From Levilinea saccharolytica (GTDB lineage: Bacteria; Chloroflexota; Anaerolineae; Anaerolineales; Anaerolineaceae), in NCBI RefSeq assembly GCF_001306035.1, contig NZ_LGCM01000034.1, positions 1 through 64,000 of the forward strand: 64,000 nucleotides of DNA. The letters are read 5' to 3'. Each line of letters begins with the position of its first letter. Positions within the stretch are counted from its first letter, which is position 1. A program made the position numbers and the translations under genes. Positions 19,384 through 50,519 of the stretch are shown here, piece by piece. The notes under the pieces are model-generated. The model saw only the letters and a list, made by a program, of their open reading frames with translations. It was not told the DNA's origin and made no database searches.

Positions 19384-19384
19384 A

Positions 19385-22234
19385 CTACTGCCACCAGACC
19401 AATGGCTTGATCGTCTGCCAATCGGGGTCGGTCAGGCTCATGCGTTCGCCATCCTGGAACTCGACGTACTCGGCGGTGATGCGCTTGATCCACTTGCCAC
19501 GCCGCTGGGAGAGGGTTTCGGCTAAATCAATGTCGGAGTACAGCCGTTCGGGGTAGAAATGGGCTTTGTTTTGTTCCACATCCATTTCCACAGAATCCAG
19601 CATCTTCAGGTCGCGCAGGAAGACGTAGCTGTGATAGGGATCTTCATAGGGGTTGTTGAACAGGTCGGCATCGGCGTAGTGGGCGCGGCGCAGCACGTCT
19701 TCGTACTGCTCCAGATCGTAATATTTGACAAAATGGCTCATGCCCTGGCCGCCGTTGGCTTTACCGTCTTTCCACTTGTCGGAGAAGGCCACCTTCTTGA
19801 TGCGCGGCAGGATGACGGTGTGGAAATGCTCACCCATCTCCACCAGGATGTATTTGCGCTTGCCGCCATCCGCGCGGTTCAGGTTCATCACCGCATGGGC
19901 AGTAGTGCCGGAACCGGCAAAAAAATCGAACGCTATGGAATACTCTTCAGAAATTCCAGAAGTTTGCAAACAATCACTCACTAATTCTTTGGACTTTGGA
20001 AAATCAAAACCTGATTGACCAAATAATTCCTTTAATTCTGCAGCGCCATAATTTGCAGATGCATATTTTTTATGATCCCACCAAGTAATAGGAAGAGATT
20101 CTTCATCCATTCTTGTTTTGAAATCGATACTAATATTATTTGATTTGTCTCTTCTTACCCGATATTCCCCCAATGGCAATTCTTTAATCATACGAATATA
20201 GCCCCTATGCCAATTCTTTTGTATTATTCGTCCTTCCTTCAATACATCAGGATAAACAACCACTTCATTTTCATCTGGCTCTTCAAGAAGTTCATATTCC
20301 CTTTTACTTTCTACCCATTCGATTCTTGGAACACGTATATTATCGTTTTTATCAACGAAAATCGGATAGTACAATTTGGGGCGATCTATTCTTTTATCAT
20401 GACTCCCTGAACGGATAAAATTTGCCCATGAATATCTACCTGAATCATCCTCTTTTGGGAAACGAGACAGTGCATGTTCTGTTTTTTCTAGAGAAGAAGG
20501 AATAGAATATTCGGATATCCCATAGAATAAGGCATATTCATGCGCTGGAGCAAATTTACCTTTTGTTTTTCGCCCAGCCGGATTTGACCGCACTGCGGCA
20601 ATACCGACTTGTTTTTTAAAAATTGTTGAAAGTATAAACTTGGTTTGGATAATTTCCTCATCATCAATTGCGACACAAATAATCCCTTCTTGTTTTAAAT
20701 AATTGGACACTACATTCAATCTATTTTCCATTAAGGTAGCCCATGAGCTATCTTTATAATCGTTACTATAGATAATAGCTGAAGCATCTGTGTTATAAGG
20801 TGGGTCAATATAAACAGCATCTACCCGTTGTTTAAACTTCGGGAGTAATGTGATCAACGCCTGATAATTCTCGCTATGCACCAGCCAGCCGTCTAGGGCG
20901 GCATCCAGGTCGTCAAACAGCGCCAGAATGTCCAGTTCCAGATCGGGGAAGTACTTTGTATCCATGGGCAGGTACTGATACTGCGGGTGCAGGGGCGCGC
21001 CATCTGCGTCTTTTTGGGTGAGCATCTCCAGCTTAAAATCCTCGCCAATCATGCCCAGATCGCGCCATTCCTGCACCTGTTGGGGCAGGTTGGGGTGGGT
21101 GAGCAATCTCGCCAAAATGTCATTGCGAGGGCGCTCTGTGCCCGAAGCAATCTTGTCCCCCTCGGCGGGAGATTGCTTCGCCCCTGCGGGGCTCGCAATG
21201 ACAGAGGGTGCTGGGCTCGCAATGACAGAGGGTGCGGGGGTCGCAATGACAGAGAGGTTGTCATTGCGAGGGCGCTCTTCGCCCGAAGCAATCTTGTCCC
21301 CCTCGGCGGGAGATTGCTTCGCCCCTACGGCATTCGCAATGATATGGTCGAGGGTCAGCACATAATGGCTGTTGCGCACAAACTTGGGCTTGTTCCAGAT
21401 CTTGACCAACTCGTCTTCAAACTGGCTGATAAAGTCAATCACTTGATAGGCGACCGTCTTTAACGCTTGCAACTGCGCCAGGCGTTCGGCGCCCCACACA
21501 TTTTGCCCGGCAAACAGGTATTGGTAAAGCCACAGGTCAAACTGTTCCTGTAAAAAGGCGCGGGCGTTCTTATTGATGAAATAATCCACCTCGCTTTGTT
21601 TTTCAAAGACGCGAAACGCCTTATAGAGGGTCTCGTCGCTCAGCTTGACGCCAGCTTTTTTCAGATCCTTAAGGATGTCATCCACCTTGGTGGTTCTGCC
21701 TTTTTCGGAATACGCCACGTCAAAAACCAGGGTGCCATCTTCGGGGTGAACCTTGCGGAAAGCGTAAATGACCTCACGCTTTTCGTTGGATTTCTTGAGC
21801 GTCATCTTGGAAGCGTCAAAGAAGAAATTGACCCCATCCACTTCCACATTCAGGCTGGTGAAGATGCGGTCTGTCTTGACGTAATACAGCATATGCGTTT
21901 TCCAGAAGAGGATCACATCACGGTCATCGGTGTACACCTTCTCATACACGTTTTGGTGCAGGGCGGTATAACGAAAGTAGATGGAACCGCTTTCGCTGAA
22001 GTAACGCTGGAAGAAGGTGTAGAGCTTGTCAAACAATTCTTCGCGGAAATCCGGGAAGGGCTTTAACGCGGCGGTGATGTCCTTTTGCAATTGTGGGAAG
22101 ACGCCCCGCTCATAATAACGTGATTTGATGCCCATCAGGTTCACATAGCCCGAATCACCCTCAACTTTAGCGCCCACAAAGATTTCATGCAGGGCATTAA
22201 AGAATTGTTTCTCAAACTTATTGGTTTGTGCCAT
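19385..22234 (-). CDS. Type III-like DNA methyltransferase Mod subunit
   Basis: A 949-residue adenine methyltransferase of the beta class: motif IV DPPYNT near residue 478 precedes motif I DFFAGSGTT near residue 790, with the target-recognition region between. The N-terminal 290 residues form an additional uncharacterised domain. Residues about 299-374 are encoded by a palindromic repeat element (21120-21342) that keeps the frame open. The target-recognition part (about 19950-20800) is clearly richer in A+T than the rest of the gene, which suggests replacement by recombination. Start ATG 22234 with GGAG 9 nt upstream and a TATAAT at 22263-22268. Res follows after one base. Confidence 0.88.
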   Translation of the reverse strand: MAQTNKFEKQFFNALHEIFVGAKVEGDSGYVNLMGIKSRYYERGVFPQLQKDITAALKPFPDFREELFDKLYTFFQRYFSESGSIYFRYTALHQNVYEKVYTDDRDVILFWKTHMLYYVKTDRIFTSLNVEVDGVNFFFDASKMTLKKSNEKREVIYAFRKVHPEDGTLVFDVAYSEKGRTTKVDDILKDLKKAGVKLSDETLYKAFRVFEKQSEVDYFINKNARAFLQEQFDLWLYQYLFAGQNVWGAERLAQLQALKTVAYQVIDFISQFEDELVKIWNKPKFVRNSHYVLTLDHIIANAVGAKQSPAEGDKIASGEERPRNDNLSVIATPAPSVIASPAPSVIASPAGAKQSPAEGDKIASGTERPRNDILARLLTHPNLPQQVQEWRDLGMIGEDFKLEMLTQKDADGAPLHPQYQYLPMDTKYFPDLELDILALFDDLDAALDGWLVHSENYQALITLLPKFKQRVDAVYIDPPYNTDASAIIYSNDYKDSSWATLMENRLNVVSNYLKQEGIICVAIDDEEIIQTKFILSTIFKKQVGIAAVRSNPAGRKTKGKFAPAHEYALFYGISEYSIPSSLEKTEHALSRFPKEDDSGRYSWANFIRSGSHDKRIDRPKLYYPIFVDKNDNIRVPRIEWVESKREYELLEEPDENEVVVYPDVLKEGRIIQKNWHRGYIRMIKELPLGEYRVRRDKSNNISIDFKTRMDEESLPITWWDHKKYASANYGAAELKELFGQSGFDFPKSKELVSDCLQTSGISEEYSIAFDFFAGSGTTAHAVMNLNRADGGKRKYILVEMGEHFHTVILPRIKKVAFSDKWKDGKANGGQGMSHFVKYYDLEQYEDVLRRAHYADADLFNNPYEDPYHSYVFLRDLKMLDSVEMDVEQNKAHFYPERLYSDIDLAETLSQRRGKWIKRITAEYVEFQDGERMSLTDPDWQTIKPLVWWQ
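21120..21342. repeat. Composite palindromic repeat inside the Mod coding sequence
   Basis: Two near-identical 82-bp units (21120-21201 and 21261-21342) each begin TCATTGCGAG and end with its complement (CTCGCAATGA or a variant), with an inner palindrome GAAGCAATCT/AGATTGCTTC. Between them, from 21191, lie tandem copies of a 24-bp period (GCTCGCAATGACAGAGGG at 21191 and 21215, a variant at 21239). The host reading frame passes through all of it. The type resembles the REP-like elements with GAAGCAATC cores that are scattered in some bacterial genomes. Confidence 0.9.
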
Positions 22235-29567: not shown

Positions 29568-29596
29568 TTTATACCGCGCTCTGAGCGAATCGTCAA
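29568..29596 (-). promoter_or_regulatory. Promoter of tRNA-Arg
   Basis: Minus strand TTGACG, 17-nt spacer, TATAAA. The -35 element overlaps the stop codon of the diguanylate cyclase gene. Confidence 0.75.
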
Positions 29597-31662
29597 GAGA
29601 TCGGCTGGCCTGATTTTCGGGCGCGTTTGGTCTGTTTTTGCTGGTACATGGCCTGATCCGCAGCCTGTACCAGGGATTCCATCTCTTCTGGGCGTTCTGC
29701 GGTGGCCGTGCCGAAGGAAAGATCAATAGGGTGGCCCAGCTTGGTCTGGTTGACCGCGGCCAACTGCTCTTCCAGGCGGTTCATCACCGCCTGAGCCGTG
29801 GCGTCGTCAGCCCCGGGGAGCAGCAGGGCAAATTCATCGCCGCCGATGCGCGCCACCGAATCGGCGGAGCGCACGATGGAGCGCAGCACAAACGACACCC
29901 GCCGCAGCAGTTCATCCCCCACCGGATGGCCGTAGTGGTCGTTGATCTGCTTCAGCCCATCCACGTCAATCATCACCAGGCTGATGGGGTAGCTGCCGGA
30001 GCTGACCTGACGGCTGAGGTAATCATCAAAATAGGCGCGGTTATACAGCCCGGTCACTGTGTCGTGCGTGCTTTGGTAGCGCAGCCGGGTTTCATCGTGC
30101 TTGCGGGCGGTGATATCGCGGCACACCGCCAAACCCCCGCCGCGCAGGCCCATCTCTTCCTGGGTGGGGGTCACTGTCACCAGCAAGATGCGCTGACCCC
30201 CGTCCAGGCGCACCATGGCCACCTCAGTGGAAAAGCTGCGTCCGCCCTCGGATTCGCGGGCGATTTGCAGAATAGATTGAGCGGAAGGCTCCGACATGAA
30301 ATCGGTCAGGTGCCGCCCGGCCATTTTCCCTGGCCGAACCCCAAACAGCTCCTCCGCCGCGGGGTTCACATATTCCAGGCGGCCCTGCAAATCGAACAGG
30401 ATGGTGCCCTCGCCTTGCAGCTGCAGCAGGGTGCGAAACCGGGCTTCTGATTCCCGCAGGGCTGTTTCGGCGGTTTTGGCCTGGGTGATATCCAGTAAGA
30501 AGCCCTGCCACACGGCGCACTGCAGGGTGCGGTCCCAGCGCAGCACGGCCTGATCGCGCACCCAGGCGATGCGCCCATCTTTGCCCACCAGGCGGTATTC
30601 CATCTCAAACGGTTCGCCCAGTTGGTTGGTGCGCTCGTGCTCGGCTTTGACGCGCTCGTAATCGTCGGGGTGAATGGATTTGAGCCAGATATCGGGGATG
30701 GTGGACCACTCTTCGGCGGTGTAGCCGGTGATGACTTCGATATGGGGGCTGGTGTAGATGTTAGAGCTTTCTTCGTCCACGCGGTCGGAATAGATGGCAG
30801 CGGAGACCTGTTCCACCAGCAGGCGGAAGCGCGCCTCGGCGTTGCGCAGCTGCTCTTCCATGCGCAGCCGGTCGGTCACATCGATTACCGATACCACCAC
30901 GCGGCTGAATTCGGCTTCATACCCGGGGATCACCGACCAACGTACAAAAACGTCCAACCGTTTGCCGTCCAGGGTGTGGTTCACCCCCTGGGCTTCAAAT
31001 TCGGTGTCGTCTTTGGCCATGGTGAGGATTTCTTTTTTGAGCAATTGCCGCCCCTCACCGCTCAGGATGTGATCCAGGTCTCCCAGCAGGTCGGCCTTGT
31101 TCCTGGCGCCGAAAAGCCGCAGCGTACTGCGGTTGACGTCCAACACCCGGATGCGGCGCGCGCATTCATCTAAGATTTCTGGGTGCAGTTCCAGGTATAA
31201 CGCCAGGTTGGTGACGCCGCGCTCCATCAGTTCATGGACATAAGCGTGCACCTGGGAAAAATCCTCTTCCCACAATGAGACGGGTGAATTTTCAAACAGG
31301 TAACGGGCGCGATTGTGGGTTGAGGCTCCGCTGCCGGGTTCGGTGCCGATGGCTGGACGTCCCAAACCTATGGGAGAGGAAGGCGGATTGCTGCTGGCGC
31401 GCGAGCTTTCTTCTTGTCTTATTTCGGGAGGGGCAGGCGGGACGGCGGCCTCGCGCCGGGTGAGCCAGATCACGGCCAGCAGCCAGAACAGGCCGGAGAG
31501 CAGGGCAAAGAGCAAATCTTTCACCCCCTCTGCACGTGCCAGCAAAGCCGCATCGAAACGCCACGGCTCCAGCAGCCAGGGGGCTGTGAAGTGCCATACA
31601 AGCGCAAGAAATGCGTATGCGCCGGCCAGGAGGAGGGCGTTGCGGAGGGTGGTTTTTTGCAT
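29593..31662 (-). CDS. Membrane-bound diguanylate cyclase with PAS domains
   Basis: A 689-residue enzyme that would make c-di-GMP from two GTP. Two N-terminal membrane helices (about residues 8-30 and 48-67), a Pro/Ser-rich linker, three PAS modules (about 110-270, 275-400, 405-525; one contains the WSTIPDIWLKSIHPDD PAS-fold-3 signature) and a C-terminal GGDEF domain. The active site GGDEF is intact, and RSAD five residues before it is the product-inhibition I-site, so the enzyme should be active and feedback-controlled. It is monocistronic; its stop overlaps the tRNA-Arg promoter. It gives a local source of the second messenger that the leader at 45366 may sense. Confidence 0.92.
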   Translation of the reverse strand: MQKTTLRNALLLAGAYAFLALVWHFTAPWLLEPWRFDAALLARAEGVKDLLFALLSGLFWLLAVIWLTRREAAVPPAPPEIRQEESSRASSNPPSSPIGLGRPAIGTEPGSGASTHNRARYLFENSPVSLWEEDFSQVHAYVHELMERGVTNLALYLELHPEILDECARRIRVLDVNRSTLRLFGARNKADLLGDLDHILSGEGRQLLKKEILTMAKDDTEFEAQGVNHTLDGKRLDVFVRWSVIPGYEAEFSRVVVSVIDVTDRLRMEEQLRNAEARFRLLVEQVSAAIYSDRVDEESSNIYTSPHIEVITGYTAEEWSTIPDIWLKSIHPDDYERVKAEHERTNQLGEPFEMEYRLVGKDGRIAWVRDQAVLRWDRTLQCAVWQGFLLDITQAKTAETALRESEARFRTLLQLQGEGTILFDLQGRLEYVNPAAEELFGVRPGKMAGRHLTDFMSEPSAQSILQIARESEGGRSFSTEVAMVRLDGGQRILLVTVTPTQEEMGLRGGGLAVCRDITARKHDETRLRYQSTHDTVTGLYNRAYFDDYLSRQVSSGSYPISLVMIDVDGLKQINDHYGHPVGDELLRRVSFVLRSIVRSADSVARIGGDEFALLLPGADDATAQAVMNRLEEQLAAVNQTKLGHPIDLSFGTATAERPEEMESLVQAADQAMYQQKQTKRARKSGQPIS

Positions 31663-39916: not shown

Positions 39917-41854
39917 ATGCAGCTTGACCATCGTATTCAAAACGTTTTTAAGGACACCGCCATTGGGGATCTGCCCAAATCCTGGCGCACCTTTTTCATC
40001 GGCCGCCCGCTGGCCACCGCCGACGCCCCGCACCAGACCATCGGCAAGGTGGTGGGATTGGCTGTGTTTGCTTCCGATGCGCTGTCTTCCACGGCCTATG
40101 CCACCCAGGAAATTTTGATGATCCTGGCCCTGGCGGGCGCGGGTGCTTTCCGCTTCACTTTTCCCATCGCCCTGGCGATTGTGGCGCTGATGACGATTGT
40201 GGCCATTTCGTATGAGCAGACCATTCACGCCTACCCGGGCGGCGGCGGCGCCTATATTGTGGCGCGCGACAACCTGGGTGAAGTGCCCGCGCAGGCGGCC
40301 GGGGCAGCCCTGCTGACCGATTACACCCTCACGGTGGCCGTGTCCATCTCCTCCGGTGTGGCGCAGATCGTTTCGGCGGTGCCATCCCTTTTCCCTTACC
40401 GTGTATGGATCGCCGCGGGGCTGGTGCTGTTTGTGATGGTGATTAATTTGCGCGGTGTGAAGGAGTCGGGGGTGACCTTTGCCATCCCCACCTATTTCTT
40501 CGTGATCACCATGCTGCTGACGGTGTCTGTGGGTCTGTTTAAGGCGCTGACCGGGCAGTTGGGCACGGTGGTGAACCCGCCTGAGATGCATGTGGGCACG
40601 GCCGTGGCCGCGCTTTCGCCGTTCCTGATTTTGCACGCGTTTTCCAGCGGCACCTCCGCCCTGACCGGCATTGAGGCCATTTCCAACGGCATTACCGCGT
40701 TTAAAGAGCCGCGCAGCCGCAACGCCGGCATCACCCTGGTCTGGATGGCGGCCCTCTTGGGTGTGCTTTTCCTGGGGGTTTCCTACATAGCCCAGCACGT
40801 TGGCGCGGTGCCTTCGGAAACAGAGACGGTCATCTCGCAGCTGACGCGCACCATTTACGGCAGCCAGGGCCTGTTCTACTTCCTGGTCATGGCGGGAACG
40901 TCGGTGATCCTGGTGATGGCGGCCAACACCGCCTTTGCTGATTTTCCGCGCCTGGGGGCCTTGCAGGCGGGAGACGGCTTTTTGCCGCGCCAGCTGACCT
41001 ACCGCGGCAGCCGCCTGGTGTTTTCCCGCGGCATCATGTCGCTGGCGGCCATCGCCATCACCTTGATCGTCCTCTTCCAGGCCAGCGTCACCCGGCTGAT
41101 CCCCCTGTATGCCATTGGCGTGTTCCTGTCGTTCACCCTGTCGCAATCGGGCATGGCGCACCGCTGGTGGAAGGTGGGGCACTTAAAGAAAGACGAGACG
41201 GTGGTTGAGCCGGGGTCGACCCTGCGCTATGAGAAAAACTGGATGGTGAAGATGTTCATCAACGGCTTTGGGGCCGTGTGCACCTTCGTGGTCATGATCG
41301 TTTTTGCGGTGACCAAGTTCCATGAGGGCGCCTGGGTGGTGACGATCATCATCCCCTTCCTGGTGATTGTTTTCCTGACCATTCACCGCCATTATAAGGG
41401 CCTGGCGCGGCAGCTTTCGTTGGAACACGGCACAAGCCCCAACGGCATCAAACGCAACCGCGTGGTGCTGCTGGTGGGCGGGGTGCATCAGGGCACGCTG
41501 GCGGCTCTGCGCTACGCCCGTAACCTGACGGATGACATCACCGCCGTGCACATCGCCACCGACCCGGTGGAAGCGGAGAAGATCCGCGCCAAATGGGAGG
41601 TGTGGGGAGAGGGCGCACGCCTGATCATTCTGGAATCGCCTTTCCGGCTGTTTATGGAGCCGCTGCTGGATTACCTGGCCAAGCTGGAAAAGCTGCGCAA
41701 ACCAGGGCAGCTGATCACCATCGTGGTGCCGCAGTTTGTGCCCAAGAAGCCAATTTTCCGTCTGCTGCATTCGCGCACCGCCGAAATGCTGCGCAAGGTC
41801 TTGCTCAACCAGGAGGATATGGTTATCATCGAGGTACCGTATCAAGTGGAATAG
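39917..41854 (+). CDS. kimA: KimA-type high-affinity potassium importer
   Basis: A 645-residue APC-superfamily transporter. Twelve membrane segments in the first about 460 residues and a cytoplasmic C-terminal domain. The blocks ASDALSSTAYATQEIL, AYPGGGGAYIVARDNLGE, DYTLTVAVSISSG and SSGTSALTGIEAISNGI match the Bacillus KimA (YdaO) family closely, better than ordinary amino acid permeases. KimA takes up K+ with protons and is inhibited by c-di-AMP. ATG 39917 with AAGG upstream is preferred over TTG 39887. The kdpDE genes follow directly, which supports a role in potassium supply. Confidence 0.85.
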   Translation: MQLDHRIQNVFKDTAIGDLPKSWRTFFIGRPLATADAPHQTIGKVVGLAVFASDALSSTAYATQEILMILALAGAGAFRFTFPIALAIVALMTIVAISYEQTIHAYPGGGGAYIVARDNLGEVPAQAAGAALLTDYTLTVAVSISSGVAQIVSAVPSLFPYRVWIAAGLVLFVMVINLRGVKESGVTFAIPTYFFVITMLLTVSVGLFKALTGQLGTVVNPPEMHVGTAVAALSPFLILHAFSSGTSALTGIEAISNGITAFKEPRSRNAGITLVWMAALLGVLFLGVSYIAQHVGAVPSETETVISQLTRTIYGSQGLFYFLVMAGTSVILVMAANTAFADFPRLGALQAGDGFLPRQLTYRGSRLVFSRGIMSLAAIAITLIVLFQASVTRLIPLYAIGVFLSFTLSQSGMAHRWWKVGHLKKDETVVEPGSTLRYEKNWMVKMFINGFGAVCTFVVMIVFAVTKFHEGAWVVTIIIPFLVIVFLTIHRHYKGLARQLSLEHGTSPNGIKRNRVVLLVGGVHQGTLAALRYARNLTDDITAVHIATDPVEAEKIRAKWEVWGEGARLIILESPFRLFMEPLLDYLAKLEKLRKPGQLITIVVPQFVPKKPIFRLLHSRTAEMLRKVLLNQEDMVIIEVPYQVE

Positions 41855-41888
41855 TTCCTGGACCGCGATGGATGCCAGACTCTTCTGA

Positions 41889-41934
41889 AACCCCCAGCAC
41901 TCGGATGACCCCCTCCAACCCGCTGGGGGTTTTT
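41889..41934 (+). terminator. Terminator-like hairpin spanning the kdpD start
   Basis: 10-bp stem AACCCCCAGC (41889-41898)/GCTGGGGGTT (41922-41931), a 23-nt loop, and a TTTTT run (41930-41934, shared with the stem end). The ATG at 41905 of kdpD lies in the loop, so the element can lower read-through from kimA and hide or present the kdpD start. Confidence 0.7.
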
Positions 41935-44571
41935 CCACATTCCACAAGGGGGGAGGGCGAGGCGGCTAACCCGCAGCGCGGCAGGCTGAAAGTGTACTTG
42001 GGCTACGCGGCGGGCGTGGGCAAGACCTCGGCCATGCTGTCCGCCGCCCGCGACCGGGCCGAGGCAGGCGTGGATGTGGCCGTGGGGGTGGTGAACACCC
42101 ACAACCGGCCCGAGATGGAAGCGCTGCTGTCGGACCTGCCGCAGATCCCGCTGCGCAAGATCTTAAGCCCGGAGCGCGTGCAGACCGAGATGGATCTGGA
42201 CGCGGTGCTGAACCGGCGCCCCGCCCTGGTGTTGGTGGACGAACTGGCCCATGCCAATTTGCCTGGCAGCCGCCATCCGCGCCGTTATCAGGACGTGCTG
42301 GATTTGTTGGAAGCCGGCCTAGACGTGTACACCACGCTCAACATTCAGCAGTTAGAGAGCCTGGGCGATGTGGTACAGCAGATCACCGGCGGGATCGTGG
42401 TCGACGCCCTGCCCGATTTTGTGCTGGATGGGGCGGATGAAATTGAGTTGGTGGACCTGCCGCCGGATGAACTGTTGGAACGGCTGCGGGACGGCAAGGT
42501 GCATTTGCCGCCGGAAGGCCCAGAAACTCAGCCCGGCTTCTTTCGCAAAGGCAACCTGACGGCGCTGCGCGAGCTGGCCCTGCGGCGGACGGCGGCGCGC
42601 GTGGATGTGCAGATGCGCGACTACATGGCCGCGCGCGACATCACCGGGCCGTGGGCAGCGGGTGAGCGCATTTTGGTGTGCGTCAGCTCCCACCCCCTGG
42701 CTGAGCGCCTGGTGCGCACGGGGCGGCGGCTGGCAGGAGACCTGGATGCACCCTGGACGGTGGCTTTTGTCGAAACCCCTGGGCATGTGCGCATGCGCCC
42801 AGAGCAGCAGCAGCGCCTGAACCAAACCCTGCTGCTGGCCGAGCAGATGGGGGCCGAGGTGGTGCGGCTGACGGGGGTGAACGCGGCCGAGACGCTTTTG
42901 GCCTATGCCCATGCCCACAACATCACCAAATTGGTGGTAGGCAAGCCGCGTTGGCCGCGCTGGGTGGAATGGGCGCGCGGTTCCATCACCCAGCAGATTT
43001 TGCGCAAGAGCGGTAGTGTGGATGTGTTTATTATTGGCGAAACAGCCGCCGAGGAAAAGTCGCCTTCGATGCGCGTGTTTCTGCACAGCCCTGCCTGGCG
43101 CTACGCGGCCGCGGCGGTGCTGGTGGGCGGGGTGACCTTGTTGGGTGTCCCTCTGCACGGGCGCATCGAACCCACCAACCTGGTGATGATTTACCTGACG
43201 GCGGTGGTGCTGGCGGCGTTGTTTTTGGGGCGCGGGCCGTCCATGCTGGCTTCCTTGTTAAGCGTGTTGGCTTTTGATTTCTTCTTCATCCGCCCCACCC
43301 TGACCCTCAGTGTGGCGGATACCGAATATCTGATCACGTTTGCCGGATTGCTACTGGTGGGCCTGGTGATCAGCAATTCCGCCGCCCTGGTGCGGGAACA
43401 GGTGGAGCAGCTGCGTAAACGCGAGGCTTTCACCGCGGCGATCAACGCCCTCAGCCGCGATTTGACCGGTCTTTCGGACCTGGATGAGATGCTGCGGGCG
43501 GTCATCCGGCGCATTCAAACCGATTTCAGTCGCGATGTGGTTCTGCTGCTGCCTGAAAACAACCATCTGAAGGTGGCCGCGGCCTCGCCCCGCCTGGAAA
43601 AGCTAGGTGAGGAGGAGATGACCGCTGCACTGTGGGCCTTTCAGCACAACCGCGAAACGGGCCTGGGAACCAGCACTCTGCCGCAGGCCGCCATGCGCTG
43701 CATCCCTCTGCAAACCGTGCACGGCCTGGTGGGGGTGATGGGCGTGCAGCCCGCTGAGGCCCAGGGGCTGCTGACTGCAGATCAGCGCCACCTGCTGGAG
43801 TCTTTTGCCAGCCTGGCCGCTTTGGCCATTGAACGCGCGCGTCTGGCGCAGCAGGCCAGCCAGACCCAGGTGCTGCAAAGCACCGAAAAATTGCAGGCGG
43901 CGCTGCTGCATTCCATCTCCCATGAGCTGCGCACCCCCTTGGTCACCATCACCGGCGCGCTCAGTTCGCTGGCCGAGGGCGAAGCCGCGCCCGCCTTGCA
44001 GCGCGAACTGGCTGAGGCCGCTTACGGCGAAGCGCGCCGCATGAACATTTTGGTGGGCAATTTGTTGGATATGAGCCGCCTGGAATCGGGCGCGTTCCGG
44101 CTGAACCGCCAACCCAGCGATTTGTGGGATTTGGCGGGCGTGGCCCTTTCGCAGTTTGGCGAGCGCCACCCCGAACGGCAGGTGCTGACCGACCTGGCCG
44201 AAGACGCCCCCCTGCTGGATGTGGATATGGCTCTGATGGTGCAGGTGCTGGTGAACTTGCTGGACAACGCCGCCAAATATTCTCCCGTGCCAGCCCCCAT
44301 TCGCCTGTTGGGGCGGCTGGAGGGCGAGGATGTGATCCTCTCGGTGGCGGATGAGGGCGTGGGCATTCCGCCGGAAGATTTGGAACGCGTGTTTGATAAG
44401 TTTTACCGCGTGCAGACCCCCGCAGGCCCGTCGGGCACAGGCCTGGGCCTGGCGATTGCCCGCGGCATCGTGGAAGCCCACGGCGGGCGTATTTGGGCGC
44501 AGAACCGGCCCGGCGGCGGCACGATCATCTCGATTCAACTGGCGCGCTGGGCAGAAAGGCAGGTGGGGTAG
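41905..44571 (+). CDS. kdpD: KdpD sensor histidine kinase
   Basis: An 888-residue membrane kinase that senses potassium status, normal length. KdpD domain (about 28-235) with Walker A GYAAGVGKT and Walker B VLVDELAHAN, USP-like domain (about 250-370), four membrane helices (DUF4118, about 385-490), a GAF-like region (about 510-640), HisKA with H673 in SISHELRTPL, and HATPase (about 770-885; NLLDNAAKYSP, DEGVGIP, GTGLGLAIARG). Start ATG 41905 or 41872; neither has a good ribosome site, and the frame upstream lies within kimA. A terminator-like hairpin covers the start. kdpE follows after 3 nt. Confidence 0.92.
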   Translation: MTPSNPLGVFPHSTRGEGEAANPQRGRLKVYLGYAAGVGKTSAMLSAARDRAEAGVDVAVGVVNTHNRPEMEALLSDLPQIPLRKILSPERVQTEMDLDAVLNRRPALVLVDELAHANLPGSRHPRRYQDVLDLLEAGLDVYTTLNIQQLESLGDVVQQITGGIVVDALPDFVLDGADEIELVDLPPDELLERLRDGKVHLPPEGPETQPGFFRKGNLTALRELALRRTAARVDVQMRDYMAARDITGPWAAGERILVCVSSHPLAERLVRTGRRLAGDLDAPWTVAFVETPGHVRMRPEQQQRLNQTLLLAEQMGAEVVRLTGVNAAETLLAYAHAHNITKLVVGKPRWPRWVEWARGSITQQILRKSGSVDVFIIGETAAEEKSPSMRVFLHSPAWRYAAAAVLVGGVTLLGVPLHGRIEPTNLVMIYLTAVVLAALFLGRGPSMLASLLSVLAFDFFFIRPTLTLSVADTEYLITFAGLLLVGLVISNSAALVREQVEQLRKREAFTAAINALSRDLTGLSDLDEMLRAVIRRIQTDFSRDVVLLLPENNHLKVAAASPRLEKLGEEEMTAALWAFQHNRETGLGTSTLPQAAMRCIPLQTVHGLVGVMGVQPAEAQGLLTADQRHLLESFASLAALAIERARLAQQASQTQVLQSTEKLQAALLHSISHELRTPLVTITGALSSLAEGEAAPALQRELAEAAYGEARRMNILVGNLLDMSRLESGAFRLNRQPSDLWDLAGVALSQFGERHPERQVLTDLAEDAPLLDVDMALMVQVLVNLLDNAAKYSPVPAPIRLLGRLEGEDVILSVADEGVGIPPEDLERVFDKFYRVQTPAGPSGTGLGLAIARGIVEAHGGRIWAQNRPGGGTIISIQLARWAERQVG

Positions 44572-44574
44572 CGT

Positions 44575-45267
44575 ATGGAAGAAACTGGCGTTCGCATTTT
44601 GGTGGTGGATGATGAACGCGCCATCCGGCGGTTTTTACGCGCCTCGCTGAGCGCCCACGGCCATACCATTCTGGAGGCAGCCGCCGGGCGCGAGGCGCTC
44701 AGCGCGGTGGCCGAGCAGCGCCCCGACATCATTTTCCTGGATTTGGGCCTGCCGGATATGGATGGGGTGGAGGTGACGCGCCAGATCCGCGAATGGAGCG
44801 ACACGCCCATCATCATCCTTTCGGTACGCGACCGCGAAGCGGATAAAATTGCCGCGCTGGAGGCGGGCGCGGATGATTACCTGGTGAAACCGTTTGGCAT
44901 GGGCGAATTGATGGTGCGCATGCGGGCGGTGCTGCGGCGCGTGTGGCAGGCGCACCGGCAGGAAGCCGTGTTTCAGAGCGGTGAGTTGAAGGTGGATTAC
45001 ACCCGCCGCCGGGTATGGGTGGGGGAGCGGGAAGTGAACCTGACCCCGACAGAATACGACCTGCTGAAGCTGCTGGCACAGAACGCGGGCAAGGTTTTAA
45101 CCCACCCGCACATGATTCAGAAAATTTGGGGCAGCGACCTGATTGGCGCGGATCATTTGCTGCGGGTCAACATCAGCAATTTGCGCAAGAAATTGGAGGC
45201 CGACCCGGCCCGCCCGCAGTATATCCTCACCGAGGCAGCGGTGGGCTACCGTTTGCGGTTGGAATGA
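44575..45267 (+). CDS. kdpE: KdpE response regulator
   Basis: A 230-residue OmpR-type regulator: receiver with acidic VVDDE, phospho-acceptor D56 (FLDLGLPD), K105, and a C-terminal winged helix (about 130-228, ending AAVGYRLRLE). Usually it activates kdpFABC. No Kdp ATPase genes are in the window, so kimA next door, or genes elsewhere, are the possible targets. No obvious terminator follows; the AT-rich promoter region of the PKD gene begins about 60 nt downstream. Confidence 0.92.
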   Translation: MEETGVRILVVDDERAIRRFLRASLSAHGHTILEAAAGREALSAVAEQRPDIIFLDLGLPDMDGVEVTRQIREWSDTPIIILSVRDREADKIAALEAGADDYLVKPFGMGELMVRMRAVLRRVWQAHRQEAVFQSGELKVDYTRRRVWVGEREVNLTPTEYDLLKLLAQNAGKVLTHPHMIQKIWGSDLIGADHLLRVNISNLRKKLEADPARPQYILTEAAVGYRLRLE

Positions 45268-45330
45268 AAGAAAATGTTTAGGCGCGCCTAAAAAATTCTA
45301 AAGTTTCAATATAAGAATCAAGCATCCCTA

Positions 45331-45359
45331 TTGACTCTTTGACTTCCTTTATCTATAAT
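45331..45359 (+). promoter_or_regulatory. Near-consensus sigma-70 promoter of the PKD-protein gene
   Basis: TTGACT (45331-45336), 17-nt spacer, TATAAT (45354-45359), in AT-rich surroundings. The expected start is near 45366, which leaves a leader of about 312 nt before ATG 45678. It is the best promoter match in the window. Confidence 0.88.
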
Positions 45360-45365
45360 AAGCAT

Positions 45366-45513
45366 GTACTCTTACCAATTTGTAAGGTCGTTCTAACCAA
45401 AATGCAAACAGTACGGCGGCTGTGAACTAAACTCTAATTTGGTCGCTTGGAGGGTGCAGAGACCCGCCGAGAGTTTAGGGAGCCAAGTAGCGAAACCGGC
45501 CCACATGGTCGGT
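45366..45513 (+). ncRNA. Structured leader RNA, candidate c-di-GMP-II-like riboswitch
   Basis: The sequence shows: a first hairpin domain closed by GTACT (45366-45370)/AGTAC (45410-45414); helix A CTAAACTCT (45427-45435)/AGAGTTTAG (45470-45478), a perfect 9 bp; helix B GGTCGCTTGG (45441-45450) with CCAAGTAGCGAAACC (45483-45497). The order A-B-A'-B' is a pseudoknot. A small hairpin GGGT/ACCC lies within. The 3' part AGTAGCGAAACCGGCC and the 5' part AATTTGG resemble the class II c-di-GMP riboswitch core (GG and CC separated from the inner stem by AA, an AGU bulge). GGCUGUG (45418-45424) can also pair with CACA...GUC (45502-45510), inside the terminator. Class assignment is inference from memory. 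That it is a structured regulatory RNA is well supported. Confidence 0.55.
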
Positions 45514-45519
45514 TTTTTT
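45493..45519 (+). terminator. Intrinsic terminator in the leader of the PKD-protein gene
   Basis: Stem AAACCGGCC/GGTCGGTTT (45493-45501, 45507-45515, one G-U pair) with loop CACAT, and a T-run to 45519. Its 5' arm overlaps helix B of the leader RNA, so the two structures exclude each other. Confidence 0.85.
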
Positions 45520-45677
45520 ATTTACCCTCTTTGGTTTGAAAGATCTTCCGCTTGGGATTTCCTGCCCTCATCACCGCTCCCTCAAGCGTCTGGGAATCAC
45601 CTGTTCTGGGTCACGGCGTTGGACCCACCGACGTTTACCGAATGTATCGCGGTCTAGTGGAATGAGTGGAGGGAACC

Positions 45678-48600
45678 ATGTATCCAAAAATCAATCAATT
45701 GATGCGCAAAACCATGCGGGCCAGCTACATGCTGGGCGTGGTGCTGCTCATCGCAGGCATGCTGCTTTCGGCGATGAACCAGCCCGCCCTGGCGGCCAGC
45801 GCCCCGGTGACGCCCCCGCCGCCGGTGGATAACGATGATGTCATTGTGGAACCGGAGCCGGTGGAGACGGCCGTGCCGGATGACCCGGCGCCGCCCGAAG
45901 AAGATCCCCTACCTACGGAAGATCCTGCTCCCACCGTCTCCCCGGTGACCCCGCGCGAGGATCCCATTCACAGCAACGACTCGGATGGGGACGGCGTGGG
46001 GGAGGGGGATAACTGCCCGTACATCGCCAACCCGGATCAGGCGGACGCCAATCAGAACGGCATTGGCGACGCCTGTGAAGACACCCAGGCGGCCAATGTT
46101 CCCAGCGCGGTGCATGACTTCAGCGTGAGCATGAATGGGGTCTTTGTGGAATTCACCCATATCGGCCCGGCGTCGTTCTCCTATTCGTGGAATTTTGGCG
46201 ACGGCAACAGCAGCAGCGAAGAGAACCCCCTGCATGAGTACGCCGCGGCGGGCACCTATTCGGTGACGCTGACCGTGGTGGAAACGGAGGGCGGCAGCCC
46301 CATCGCCGTCACCAAAGCGGTGGTGGTGACGGATACCGTCCTGCCGCCGATGGTTTGCGATTTCAGCCTGAGCCATGACGGCGGCGACACGCCCACCGTG
46401 CCGCTGACGGTTTCGTTTAACAACCTCAGCGAAAATGCGGACAGCTTCACCTGGACGTTTGGCGACGGTTCGGGCAGCATTCTGACCAACCCTACCCACA
46501 CCTACACCACCGCGGGCACGTTCAACATCCTTCTGGTGTGCTCCCGCCCCGGCGAGACCCTGCAAGCTACCGGGCAGGTTTCCATCGCCCCGGCGACTTC
46601 CAGCCTGTCGGCCACCTTTGTTTCCACCCAGGCCAGCCCGGCGGATCTGTTCACCTTCAACTTTGACGCCACCGCGGTCAGCACCGGCACGATCACCGGC
46701 TACGCCTGGACCTTTGGGGACGGCGGCAGCAGCAGCGAAGAAGACCCCACCCACACCTATGCTGCCCCGGGCACCTATTACGTGCATCTGGTGGTGACGG
46801 ACAGTTTGGGCAACACCGTGCACGCTTTTGGCGCGGTGGAAATTTATGTGGGGGCGCCCGCCCCGCTGCCCGCCTTCAGCGTCAGTCCGCAAACCGGCCC
46901 TGCCCCGTTGGAAGTGAGCATCAGCAACGAGACCAGCGGCGGCCCGGTGACGCAGTGGTCGTGGAATTTCGGCGACGGCTACACCCTGGTGACCACGGAT
47001 AACCTGCCGTCTCTCGAACACACCTATACCTCGATCGGAACCTACACCATCACCCTCAACGCCAGCGGCCCTGGCGGATCGGGCACGACCTATAAGCAGG
47101 TGGTGGTGACGGTCAACGATACGCCTGTGCAGGCGCAGTTCAGCCACGAATTTGTGGGCAGCTACGGCCCCGACGGCCAGCAGGTGTGCTTCAGCAACGA
47201 CAGCACCGGGCCAGTGGCTAGCTTCCAATGGAATTTGGCCTCAGGCGGCGCCAGCACCGAGATGAACCCCTGCGCGTACTTCACCGAAGGGACTTACATC
47301 ATTGAGCTGCGCGTGGTGGGCACCAGCGGCCAGATTTCGACGGCCAGCAAGCGCCTGAATGTGGTTCCCAACACCATCCCGCCGATCGCCAGTTTTAACG
47401 TCAACGCCACCAGCGGCACCACTGTCACGAATTTCAACTTCACCGACACCAGCACGGGGGTCATCACCAACTGGTCGTGGGACTTTGGCGACGGCAGCGC
47501 GCTGGTGACCACCCGCAATGTGTCCAATAAACGCTTCAACACGGCTGGAGCCTATGTGGTCACGCTGACCGTCACCGGCCCAGGGGGCAGCTCTTCGGCT
47601 TCGAAGACGCTGACGATCACGGCGGTGACGCCCACCTGTGCGATCGGCATCCAGCCGGATATCGTCCGCGCGGGCGATACGGTGACCCTGACCGGCTTCG
47701 CCAACAACCTGCCCGCGGGGGTCACGGCTACCGCCTGGGATTGGACCATCAGCAACCCGGCCCAGGCTTTGAGCGGCCAGGTGGTCACCTTCCTGGCGGC
47801 CACGCCGTCCTTCACGGCCAGCCTGCGCGTCACCTTGAGCGACGGCAGCTTCTTGAACTGCGCTCGCAGCCGCACGGTGTACGCTGCCGACTTTATCTAC
47901 GCGACCTGCTCGGCCACGCCCAACGACCCCTCGGTGGGTCAGGTGGTCAACTTTAACGTCAACCCCAGCCTGCCGGCGGGCGTGACGGTGGCTTCGTACC
48001 AATGGAATTTCAACGGCGAAGGCAGCGCGGCGATTAAGACCCCCACCTTCAGTTTCAGCACCATCGGAGCTAAAAATGTCAGTGTACTGGTCACGTCCAG
48101 TACAGGCAGCCAGACCACGGCTGTCTGCAACGTGACCGTTTACGACCAGCAGTCCCTCAGCGTGCAGGTGGACCCAGAAACGGAACTGCTGCCCTACACG
48201 GTGACCTTCACAGCCGTGGGCGGTCCGCGGGATTTCAGCGGCTTTGTGTGGACCCTGCCGGACGGCTCGACGGCCTACGGTCAGAGCGTGGACTACATCG
48301 TCACCACCGCAGGCGACCAGTGGGCTTCGGTGGTCGGCACCTGGAAGTACGGCGAGCTGACCGCATCCGGCAAGACCGTCGGCTACACCACCACCACCAT
48401 CCAGGCGGCCTTCACCCCGGATAAGTGGACCGGGGTGGTTCCGGTGGAGATTTGCTTCACCGATGAAAGCGTCAGCGAAACGCCCATCACCAGCTGGCTG
48501 TGGGATTTGGGGAACGGCGAAACCAGCACGGAACAAAACCCCTGCACGACCTACACCGTCGCGGGCGATTACACCGTCACCCTGACGATTAACAACACGG

Positions 48601-50519
48601 CGGGCCTGACGGCCATGGCCACCAATAATATCAAGGTCTTCTCGGTGGTGCAGGGCGGCTCGACCTTTACGGTTGATCCCTCTAATACGACCACCATTTG
48701 TTTCACCGTTTCCATGCAGCCGGGCGAGACGGTGGTGATGTGGGACTTCGGGGACGGCACGGTGGTGTACTTGCAGCCCAGCGATGATCCCAACTTGTGC
48801 CACACCTACGCATCCGGCGGCGACTATGAAGTCACCATGGTGGTGCAGGGTGCCATCGGGCAGTACGCCGTCCGGCGGGTGGTGACGGTCTCGGAACCGA
48901 TTGTGGACCTCAGCCTGAGCCACCGCTGTGGGGACGAGGGCATCGAGTGGCTGGTGACCAACCCCAACACCTACCCCGTCACCATTTCCTTCAGCGTGAC
49001 TGGCATCTCCGGCGGCACAGGAACCGTGGCCGCTAACGAGACCGCCATCTACGCTACCACGCCCTTGGGTACGGCGCGTAACGCCAGCGTTTCGTGGACG
49101 GCGGCGGATGAAGTGACGCGCAGCTACACGGATTCGGCGGCGGCGGATGAATGCACCACCAGCAATACACTGACCCTCACCTACCAGTGCGGTTTCGCGG
49201 ATGAAACCACCTACACCTGGCAGGTGGTCAACACCACCGGCTACACCATTGACTTCACCTGGGACGTGACCAGCACCGCCCTCAGCGGCGGCGGCAGGGT
49301 GGGCCCCAACGGTTCCACCAGCTTCACCACCCCCATCCAGAGCTTCCCCACGCGCGAAACGCAGACCCTGAATGTGTACGTGGGCGAGACGCTCATCACC
49401 AGTCAAAACAGCGGTACGCCGTGCAAGGCCGATTTGACCCTTTCGCCGGTGTGCACCGAGAACAACGAAATTTCCTGGGTGCTGAGCAACCCCAATGCTG
49501 ACCTGAGCTTTGACTACTCCTTCAGTCTGGACGTTGGAGCGGCCGTGGGGGCAGGCAGCATCGCCGGCGGTCAGACCCTTTCTATTCACACCTCGTCCAA
49601 CGGCGGCCACAGCATGGTGGTGACCTACACCGGTGTGGACGGCTCGCGCCAGGTTTCGGCGCAGTCCAGCGCCTTCCAATGCGTGCCGCCTGGCGATCTG
49701 TCGGTGACTTTCACCTGTAATCTGGAAGATAACAGCGTGGATTGGCGGGTCTCGAACCCCAACGGGTACGAGGTGGACTTTGAATACTACATTGACCGCG
49801 CGCCGGAAGGCGAGCCGGATGGAACCGGCACAGCGGCGGCCAACACCAGCGGGGTGGCTTTTACCAGCACCAGCGGCGGCGGGCACACCGTGACGATTGT
49901 GTGGATGCAGCCCGACGAGGAGACCCGCTCGGCCAGCAACACCAGCGGTGAGTTCTTCTGCGTGCCGCCGGTGGAACTGGACCTGACCTACGCCTGCCCC
50001 ACCGGTTCGGTCACGCGCCAGATCCGCTGGACGGTCTTGAACCCCAACGGCTATGATGTGGCCTTCTCGTGGTACCTCGACCGCGCGCCCACGGGCGCGG
50101 CGGACGGCAGCGGGGTGGTGCCCGGCGGTACGGTGGGCGAACCCGGCTCGCTGGAATTCCTGACCACATCGGGCGGGGCGCACACGGTGTACATCGTGTA
50201 CGGCGAGGGCGAAGGCAGCTCAGAAACCAGCGAAAGCACCGCCGCTAACTACTGCAAGCCGCCCAAGGAAGGCAACCCCGATCCCACGCCCACGCCGGGC
50301 GGTGGTGGGGGTGCGGGCGGCGGGAACTTGCCCGCCTTGCTGCCCCCGGCCAACACCGGCGATGTGCTCATCCCGGTGACCGGCGCGGACCTGCGCCAGC
50401 TGCCCTTCGCGGTGGCGGTGCAGCGCTGGCTGACCAACCTGGGCCTGCTGCTCTTGGGCGTAGGCATGGTCTTGAACGGTCTGACGCGCCGTCCGCGGCG
50501 AGGACAACCGCCGCTGTAA
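45678..50519 (+). CDS. Giant PKD-repeat surface protein with C-terminal anchor
   Basis: A 1613-residue exported protein. Signal peptide (to about residue 40, QPALA-ASA), a Pro/Glu/Asp-rich linker, a thrombospondin type 3-like Ca site (SDGDGVGEGDNCPYIANPDQ), then about nine PKD or PKD-like domains (about 120-1070; repeated WNFGDG, WTFGDG, WDFGDG and GTYTITL strands). Residues about 1075-1530 hold five Cys-containing repeats that I do not recognise (NPNGY/NPN core). A Gly-rich linker, IPVTG near residue 1565, a hydrophobic helix and RRPRRG end the chain, a sortase-like or membrane anchor. ATG 45678 with GGAGGG is the start. Probably an adhesin or matrix protein, controlled by the leader RNA. 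Confidence 0.85.
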   Translation: MYPKINQLMRKTMRASYMLGVVLLIAGMLLSAMNQPALAASAPVTPPPPVDNDDVIVEPEPVETAVPDDPAPPEEDPLPTEDPAPTVSPVTPREDPIHSNDSDGDGVGEGDNCPYIANPDQADANQNGIGDACEDTQAANVPSAVHDFSVSMNGVFVEFTHIGPASFSYSWNFGDGNSSSEENPLHEYAAAGTYSVTLTVVETEGGSPIAVTKAVVVTDTVLPPMVCDFSLSHDGGDTPTVPLTVSFNNLSENADSFTWTFGDGSGSILTNPTHTYTTAGTFNILLVCSRPGETLQATGQVSIAPATSSLSATFVSTQASPADLFTFNFDATAVSTGTITGYAWTFGDGGSSSEEDPTHTYAAPGTYYVHLVVTDSLGNTVHAFGAVEIYVGAPAPLPAFSVSPQTGPAPLEVSISNETSGGPVTQWSWNFGDGYTLVTTDNLPSLEHTYTSIGTYTITLNASGPGGSGTTYKQVVVTVNDTPVQAQFSHEFVGSYGPDGQQVCFSNDSTGPVASFQWNLASGGASTEMNPCAYFTEGTYIIELRVVGTSGQISTASKRLNVVPNTIPPIASFNVNATSGTTVTNFNFTDTSTGVITNWSWDFGDGSALVTTRNVSNKRFNTAGAYVVTLTVTGPGGSSSASKTLTITAVTPTCAIGIQPDIVRAGDTVTLTGFANNLPAGVTATAWDWTISNPAQALSGQVVTFLAATPSFTASLRVTLSDGSFLNCARSRTVYAADFIYATCSATPNDPSVGQVVNFNVNPSLPAGVTVASYQWNFNGEGSAAIKTPTFSFSTIGAKNVSVLVTSSTGSQTTAVCNVTVYDQQSLSVQVDPETELLPYTVTFTAVGGPRDFSGFVWTLPDGSTAYGQSVDYIVTTAGDQWASVVGTWKYGELTASGKTVGYTTTTIQAAFTPDKWTGVVPVEICFTDESVSETPITSWLWDLGNGETSTEQNPCTTYTVAGDYTVTLTINNTAGLTAMATNNIKVFSVVQGGSTFTVDPSNTTTICFTVSMQPGETVVMWDFGDGTVVYLQPSDDPNLCHTYASGGDYEVTMVVQGAIGQYAVRRVVTVSEPIVDLSLSHRCGDEGIEWLVTNPNTYPVTISFSVTGISGGTGTVAANETAIYATTPLGTARNASVSWTAADEVTRSYTDSAAADECTTSNTLTLTYQCGFADETTYTWQVVNTTGYTIDFTWDVTSTALSGGGRVGPNGSTSFTTPIQSFPTRETQTLNVYVGETLITSQNSGTPCKADLTLSPVCTENNEISWVLSNPNADLSFDYSFSLDVGAAVGAGSIAGGQTLSIHTSSNGGHSMVVTYTGVDGSRQVSAQSSAFQCVPPGDLSVTFTCNLEDNSVDWRVSNPNGYEVDFEYYIDRAPEGEPDGTGTAAANTSGVAFTSTSGGGHTVTIVWMQPDEETRSASNTSGEFFCVPPVELDLTYACPTGSVTRQIRWTVLNPNGYDVAFSWYLDRAPTGAADGSGVVPGGTVGEPGSLEFLTTSGGAHTVYIVYGEGEGSSETSESTAANYCKPPKEGNPDPTPTPGGGGGAGGGNLPALLPPANTGDVLIPVTGADLRQLPFAVAVQRWLTNLGLLLLGVGMVLNGLTRRPRRGQPPL

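Follow-up and report, generated by a model that had tools for sequence, protein, structure and literature searches.

The class II c-di-GMP riboswitches of C. difficile are described, in the available text of PMC11477304, as transcriptional ON switches, and one of them, the CD2831 leader, is presented in the accessible part of PMC6447587 as a class II ON switch before the gene for a sortase-anchored collagen-binding protein. Tandem c-di-GMP-II aptamers (59 doublets and 9 triplets, most of them before a surface anchor gene) are reported from Paraclostridium and its relatives in PMC9481103. Variants of the class, c-di-GMP-II-GAG and c-di-GMP-II-GCG, appear in the available excerpts of PMC9943018 and PMC12452182; the latter also describes riboswitches in general as enriched in Chloroflexota, and isolated members of the RNA set analyzed here may sit in its tables. 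For the RNA in PDB entry 3Q3Z (C. acetobutylicum), the available part of PMC7288161 gives the ligand contacts as A13, A14, U37, G39, U60, A61, C68, A69, A70, C71, C72, G73, and A74. In the open-access literature, outside which most subscription papers fall, we found no description of the regulon proposed below in Chloroflexi/Anaerolinea.

We analyzed a window of 64,000 nucleotides from Levilinea saccharolytica, in which a leader precedes the gene for a surface-type protein. Judged by the accessible text on CD2831, the two loci are alike in that a class II switch would precede a C-terminally sorted surface protein; CD2831 belongs to another phylum and has a PPKTG motif and sortase B, whereas the window protein carries LIPVTG, and, unlike at CD2831, a response regulator and sortase gene pair also appears to be under such a switch here. 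Doublets and triplets occur among the homologues of the leader too, as in the excerpts of PMC9481103, but the tandems of that study come from another phylum, some tandems here lie before response-regulator genes, and the window copy is single.

The leader and its Rfam class

The earlier note, made from the letters of the window alone, had read this leader as a candidate c-di-GMP-II-like riboswitch with a promoter, two long helices in pseudoknot order, and an overlapping terminator. The features are listed below; A1 and A2 are alignments of homologous RNAs, and R2 is a lineage model built without rows from the window's own genome.

45331-45336, + strand: -35 hexamer TTGACT (11 of 12 promoter matches, 17-nt spacer)
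45354-45359, + strand: -10 hexamer TATAAT of the same promoter-like site
45406-45507, + strand: c-di-GMP-II-type aptamer (RF01786, 38.6 bits, E 8.2e-7; R2, 59.6 bits, roughly calibrated E 1.5e-20, at 45406-45506)
45415-45416, + strand: P1 5' strand GG, pairing with CC 45500-45501 (alignments A1 and A2)
45417, + strand: C at what we take to be the A13 position of 3Q3Z (A2 column 12)
45418-45420, + strand: 5' strand GGC of a 3-bp helix, pairing with GCC 45482-45484 (87.2% of cells paired in A1)
45427-45435, + strand: P2 5' strand CTAAACTCT, partner 45470-45478
45441-45447, + strand: pseudoknot 5' strand GGTCGCT (7 pairs, 99.2% of cells paired in A1)
45470-45478, + strand: P2 3' strand AGAGTTTAG, partner 45427-45435
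45489-45497, + strand: pseudoknot 3' strand AGCGA-AA-CC, containing the pocket AA 45494-45495
45494-45501, + strand: terminator 5' arm AACCGGCC, common to the pocket, the pseudoknot, and the P1 3' strand
45507-45519, + strand: terminator 3' arm GGTCGGTT and T run (from the fold and a consensus scan)
45678-50519, + strand: surface-type protein of 1613 aa with PKD repeats (Pfam PKD_4, E 6.1e-97)
29593-31662, - strand: PAS-GGDEF protein (PF00990, E 3.2e-42; GGDEF motif at residue 607)

Several parts of the earlier description were found as described: the TTGACT-17-TATAAT promoter, a leader of about 310 nt, the first 9-bp helix (CTAAACTCT with AGAGTTTAG), a terminator whose 5' arm overlaps the second helix, and a GGDEF enzyme elsewhere in the window. 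The promoter is modest evidence on its own, because 0.6 sites of this quality are expected per shuffled region and one was found in the leader region. We infer that the RNA starts near 45366, from which the leader would run to the ATG at 45678, with GGAGGG ahead of the start codon. The encoded protein has a signal-peptide-like N terminus and, read by eye, ends in LIPVTGAD, a hydrophobic stretch, and RRPRRG; the LIPVTG end is probably a sorting signal, through which the protein would be anchored by sortase. Several LIPVTG proteins (window 45678-45800, L061, L068, and L064) share, again by eye, a signal peptide of the style SRxxYxxGvxLLxxGmxLS...VxA. Immediately upstream of the leader lie genes for a KdpD-like sensor kinase and an OmpR-type regulator (41593-45267, +), and elsewhere in the window adjoining DNA methylase (N6_N4_Mtase) and ResIII helicase genes resemble a type III restriction-modification system (16411-22234, -).

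An Rfam scan of the window at gathering scores reported two tRNAs only. The leader is missed by such a scan because its 38.6 bits fall below the RF01786 gathering score of 53.5. This cut-off is set by curators against noise and describes no biological feature, but the window copy formally remains under it. At a permissive threshold over 601 bases, RF01786 (c-di-GMP-II) matched the aptamer over its full length and outscored every other model of its clan there; one lower match, to an unnamed model of the same clan, was also returned. The GAG and GCG variant models presumably share this clan, in which RF01786 scores best. RF01051 (c-di-GMP-I), the other model singled out by the earlier note, gave no match up to E 10 within 45200-45800, and a c-di-GMP-I identity was rejected on this ground.

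The window leader is like RF01786 and the 3Q3Z RNA in the order of its elements, its AGU and AACCG core, its pseudoknot, its 3-bp helix with the bulge position, and, on the register assumed below, most of its ligand-contact positions. It differs in the pseudoknot core (UCGC/GCGA in the window versus the RF01786 consensus GCAC/GUGC), in a longer P2 loop (22 residues at a place where a single model position is skipped in the match, with the capacity to form a hairpin), in a short P1, in the C at the presumed A13 position, and in its score relative to the cut-off. Given the RF01786 match and the conserved core of the class, there is no need to fall back on an undescribed riboswitch type, and that idea was rejected. 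By its sequence, the leader almost certainly belongs to the known c-di-GMP-II class of RNA switches.

Covariation and distribution of the RNA

Homologous leaders were collected from related genomes; with two spurious regular-expression rows (L086, and L010 on the minus strand) and L024, which could not be segmented, set aside, 62 distinct leaders remained. For A1, 52 of these were aligned with MAFFT without use of structure, and 25 modelled pairs were tested. The window row stands for L002 in A1, which leaves out L008, L010, L014, L049, L052, L057, one row each of L032 and L055, and both rows of L061, some of them for poor segmentation. A4 retains 46 of the 52 rows, leaving out two own-genome rows, L065, and three further rows with a one-base insertion (two of L051, and L073).

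In A1, 85.5% of cells are paired, compared with 32.8 to 43.3% in six slid versions of the structure and 67.7% in column shuffles, and the covariation score is 0.503 versus 0.167. The corresponding values in A4 are 87.8% and 0.548. The number of pairs with double changes was reached by 7/500 shuffles for A1, 3/500 for A4, and 42/500 for A2; this count, one of five covariation measures, is less telling than the others.

The individual elements behave as follows. In P2, both sides change in 8/8 modelled pairs and 89.6% of A1 cells are paired. The outer pair of the 3-bp helix is GC in 21 of 52 rows, UA in 11, AU in 3, CG in 2, and GU in 1, and is unpaired in 14. A2, a model-fitted alignment that leans towards the structure, gives 95.5% for P2 and 91.8% for the 3-bp helix. 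These two helices are nested in the same order as in RF01786, and the pseudoknot between the P2 loop and the 3' strand flanking AACC, a feature of that class, is present: GG 45441-45442 pairs with CC 45496-45497 and UCGCU 45443-45447 with AGCGA 45489-45493, leaving AA 45494-45495 unpaired. Its outer pair is standard in all 52 rows (UA 34, CG 8, AU 5, UG 4, GC 1). P1 is weaker than the other helices, with 66.5% of A1 cells paired over 7 pairs, all 7 of which show double changes; in the window copy only 2 contiguous pairs can form. The window copy also has one extra base between GGAGCC and the AGU element; its P2, 3-bp helix, and pseudoknot are all fully paired.

The compensatory changes that the earlier note had proposed to look for in homologous leaders are present across 52 leaders, in the first helix and in the pseudoknot. 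Its second helix is real, but the register differs from the one first drawn: the CTTGG/CCAAG extension is not conserved, because CC 45483-45484 pairs with GG 45418-45419, and it was rejected as part of the conserved structure.

RF01786 found two copies in the same genome, the window copy and one on contig C63 (41.0 bits); a third match in the permissive search, on contig C12 (E 0.34), was dropped, being absent from the matches of R1, the lineage model built from the 52 A1 rows. R1, whose E-values like those of R2 are roughly calibrated, found four strong own-genome copies (C63, the window, C21, and C2) and further weak matches, the best at E 0.004 on contig C45. R2 recovered the other three copies at 65.3, 60.5, and 54.3 bits, and its next match beyond the own copies in 102 kb had a roughly calibrated E of 0.03.

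Across the order Anaerolineales, RF01786 matched 108/301 genomes at E ≤ 0.01, 8/301 of them above the cut-off, and 0/14 control genomes at the same threshold (3/14 at E ≤ 1). R1 matched 114/301 order genomes at E ≤ 1e-8. Across the phylum it matched 75/301 at E ≤ 0.001, where the weakest matches may have arisen by chance. The Rfam cut-off thus hides the class in this order, with 8/301 genomes passing it versus 114/301 by the lineage model. An unrescored pattern scan of GTDB contigs gave at least 117 stretches; among those listed are Ornatilinea, Anaerolinea, Leptolinea, Bellilinea, Longilinea, Pelolinea, and Thermanaerothrix, together with some unrelated genomes, probably matched by chance.

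Tandem arrangements were observed as triplets in L064 (5004-5393, -), before a response-regulator gene, and in L040 (896-1223, +), and as doublets in L055 (1000-1231), L061 (4874-5105), L051 (1001-1234), L078 (889-1097), L057 (898-1108), L052 (861-1093), and L038 (5005-5257). In a looser scan, no terminator was found in any L040 or L057 copy or in the upstream copy of L078.

Terminator, ligand pocket, and ligand

The terminator at 45494-45514 has an 8-bp stem (-10.7 kcal/mol) followed by a T run to 45519; the consensus scan found one where 0.4 were expected. The lowest-energy fold of 45365-45521, computed with a model that leaves out pseudoknots, contains P2 and the terminator together. The 5' arm AACCGGCC, which includes AACCGG, doubles as the strand in which the adenines of the pocket, the CC of the pseudoknot, and the 3' side of P1 lie. 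This overlap is shared by 68/93 distinct homologues, compared with an expected 4.2 when the downstream part is dinucleotide-shuffled, under a strict criterion (an uninterrupted stem of at least 6 pairs starting in the pocket strand, followed by T-rich sequence; 93 of 98 matches used, without repeats and one cut-short match). The remaining 25/93 have no terminator by this criterion, and the looser scan finds one in 85/98.

Because the terminator shares the pocket strand, ligand binding should prevent termination, and the leader is very likely a transcriptional ON switch, a direction read from the arrangement of its strands. Without ligand, AACCGGCC would pair with GGTCGGTT and transcription would stop at the T run. 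At high c-di-GMP, the ligand would be held in the pocket around the pseudoknot (GGTCGCT with AGCGA-AA-CC), the AACCGG strand would be locked into the aptamer and the short P1, and the terminator could not form; the PKD surface protein would then be made and probably anchored by sortase.

The register by which the numbering of 3Q3Z is placed on the window is our assumption. On that register, 8/13 contacts are presumably kept (U37, G39, A61, A69, A70, C71, C72, and G73), and three more appear to have undergone exchanges that keep the pair (A14-U60 to G-C, and C68 to A opposite U). The A74 position would be G, and the A13 position C45417. Across the 94 distinct rows of A2, the AACCG columns are invariant, and the positions we take to be U37, A61, A69, A70, C71, C72, and G73 are kept in 90 to 94 rows; the A13 column contains A 64, C 21, G 7, and T 2.

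The distribution of cyclase domains bears on the identity of the ligand. GGDEF domains are present in 253/301 genomes of the order and in 112/114 R1-positive genomes, the two exceptions being 58% and 85% complete assemblies; 46/48 genomes without GGDEF also lack the RNA (Fisher p 8e-9, uncorrected for shared ancestry). The RNA is far from universal among GGDEF-bearing genomes, 141/253 of which have no R1 match, and with RF01786 matches in place of R1 the table reads 106, 2, 147, and 46. The c-di-AMP cyclase domain PF02457 occurs in 289/301 genomes of the order, and its presence is not linked to that of the RNA among the 301 (109/114 versus 180/187, p 0.77), and c-di-AMP was rejected as the ligand. 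We infer that the ligand is c-di-GMP. At least 11 GGDEF matches were counted in the L. saccharolytica genome, and the PAS-GGDEF protein encoded in the window is a candidate for making the ligand.

The class call of the earlier note is upheld by the rank of RF01786 within its clan, the covarying helices and pseudoknot, the contacts that are presumably largely kept, the terminator competing for the pocket strand, and the co-occurrence with GGDEF. We consider it highly probable that the leader is a divergent c-di-GMP-II riboswitch acting as a transcriptional ON switch; the score below threshold, the C at the presumed A13 position, the two-pair P1, the one-base insertion, the 25/93 homologues without the strictly defined terminator, the 141/253 GGDEF-bearing genomes without an R1 match, and the shuffles that reach the double-change count weigh against this reading. 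A bolder form of it, which we think improbable, makes the Anaerolineales RNAs a distinct c-di-GMP-II subtype in which the pocket edge is rebuilt (the A13 position is free, and some copies carry an extra base ahead of A61) and the specificity for, or sensitivity to, dinucleotides has changed, with the RNAs serving as a main effector of a sortase-based surface programme.

An aptamer derived from c-di-GMP-II could instead have come to prefer another ligand, such as 3',3'-cGAMP or a linear dinucleotide, while keeping the same terminator mechanism. Such a shift would fit the 30/94 distinct aptamers, the window copy included, in which the A13 position is not A, the extra base that the window copy has ahead of the A61 element, and the low scores of most matched genomes (8/108 above the Rfam cut-off). 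It is nevertheless quite improbable, given that the presumed U37, A61, A69, A70, C71, C72, and G73 positions persist, that RF01786 outscores the other matching clan model, and that occurrence of the RNA follows GGDEF, though some GGDEF enzymes could make cGAMP as well. The window copy might also be a plain attenuator or terminator in which the aptamer has decayed and ligand binding has been lost, as its weak P1 and A13-position substitution could suggest; this is very unlikely for an RNA with P2, the 3-bp helix, and the pseudoknot intact that scores, with the model excluding it, close to its three paralogues. That the likeness arose by chance, from an ordinary hairpin close to a terminator, has a negligible probability, for although shuffled sequence not infrequently yields a single promoter or terminator match, the RF01786 and R2 E-values (8e-7 and, roughly calibrated, 1.5e-20) and covariation far above the slid controls oppose it.

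Genes downstream of the aptamers

Returning to the c-di-GMP-II riboswitch reading, we compared the genes that the RNAs precede. One own-genome copy lies before an OmpR-type response regulator gene followed by a sortase-domain gene. Another precedes genes for a sugar transferase, a MocA-type oxidoreductase, a hexapeptide transferase, a Wzz/AAA protein, and a DegT-type aminotransferase, a group that we class as an exopolysaccharide-type operon. Another precedes a gene whose product, 2211 residues long, has Ig, cadherin-like, and metallophosphatase domains and no sorting signal; we would also class this protein as surface-type. Relatives of the sortase on contig C63 are encoded in loci of six other genomes (L035, L048, L051, L064, L068, and L079).

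For the homologues, the first downstream frame was taken mechanically for 119 aptamer entries, so that some frames are perhaps wrong, and none was obtained for 7. This gave 98 proteins, two of them repeats, of which 78 form set A3; the repeats, the longest proteins, and 15 additions from L122-L137 (five of them from the same order) were left out. No single target family was found in A3: the downstream genes are diverse, and the commonest Pfam families occur in 10/78 proteins. Response regulators likewise account for 10/78. An [LIVM]PxTG-type C terminus is present in 14/53 complete A3 proteins, the other 25/78 being cut by the locus end and unscored. A stricter scan of 731 frames, whose length limit passes over the 1613-aa window protein, found 13 sorting signals, 10 of them with an aptamer just upstream. 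In the order, the aptamers sit mostly before surface-protein, sortase, and polysaccharide genes.

Because genes of the exopolysaccharide type neighbor the RNA, as do those for a response regulator, a sortase, and proteins on which this sortase probably acts, a c-di-GMP regulon is suggested; by these gene annotations it would be concrete and coherent in these anaerobes. The role of c-di-GMP in Anaerolineales thereby becomes directly testable with short RNAs in vitro.

Further features of the downstream proteins were noted. OmpR-type regulators downstream of aptamers carry an N-terminal G[VAFIL]DLD motif ahead of the receiver domain (L001, L035, L042, L048, L050, L051, L052, L054, L064, and L079). 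In two genomes of one genus, the aptamer precedes an amino-acid kinase-like N terminus resembling glutamate 5-kinase (L075, 12855-14283; L063, 3630-5113), an unexpected metabolic neighbor; AA_kinase and PUA match two members each of A3. In a more distant family of the phylum, an aptamer lies before a protein whose N-terminal sequence resembles glucosamine-6-phosphate synthase (L132, 3164-5080, -).
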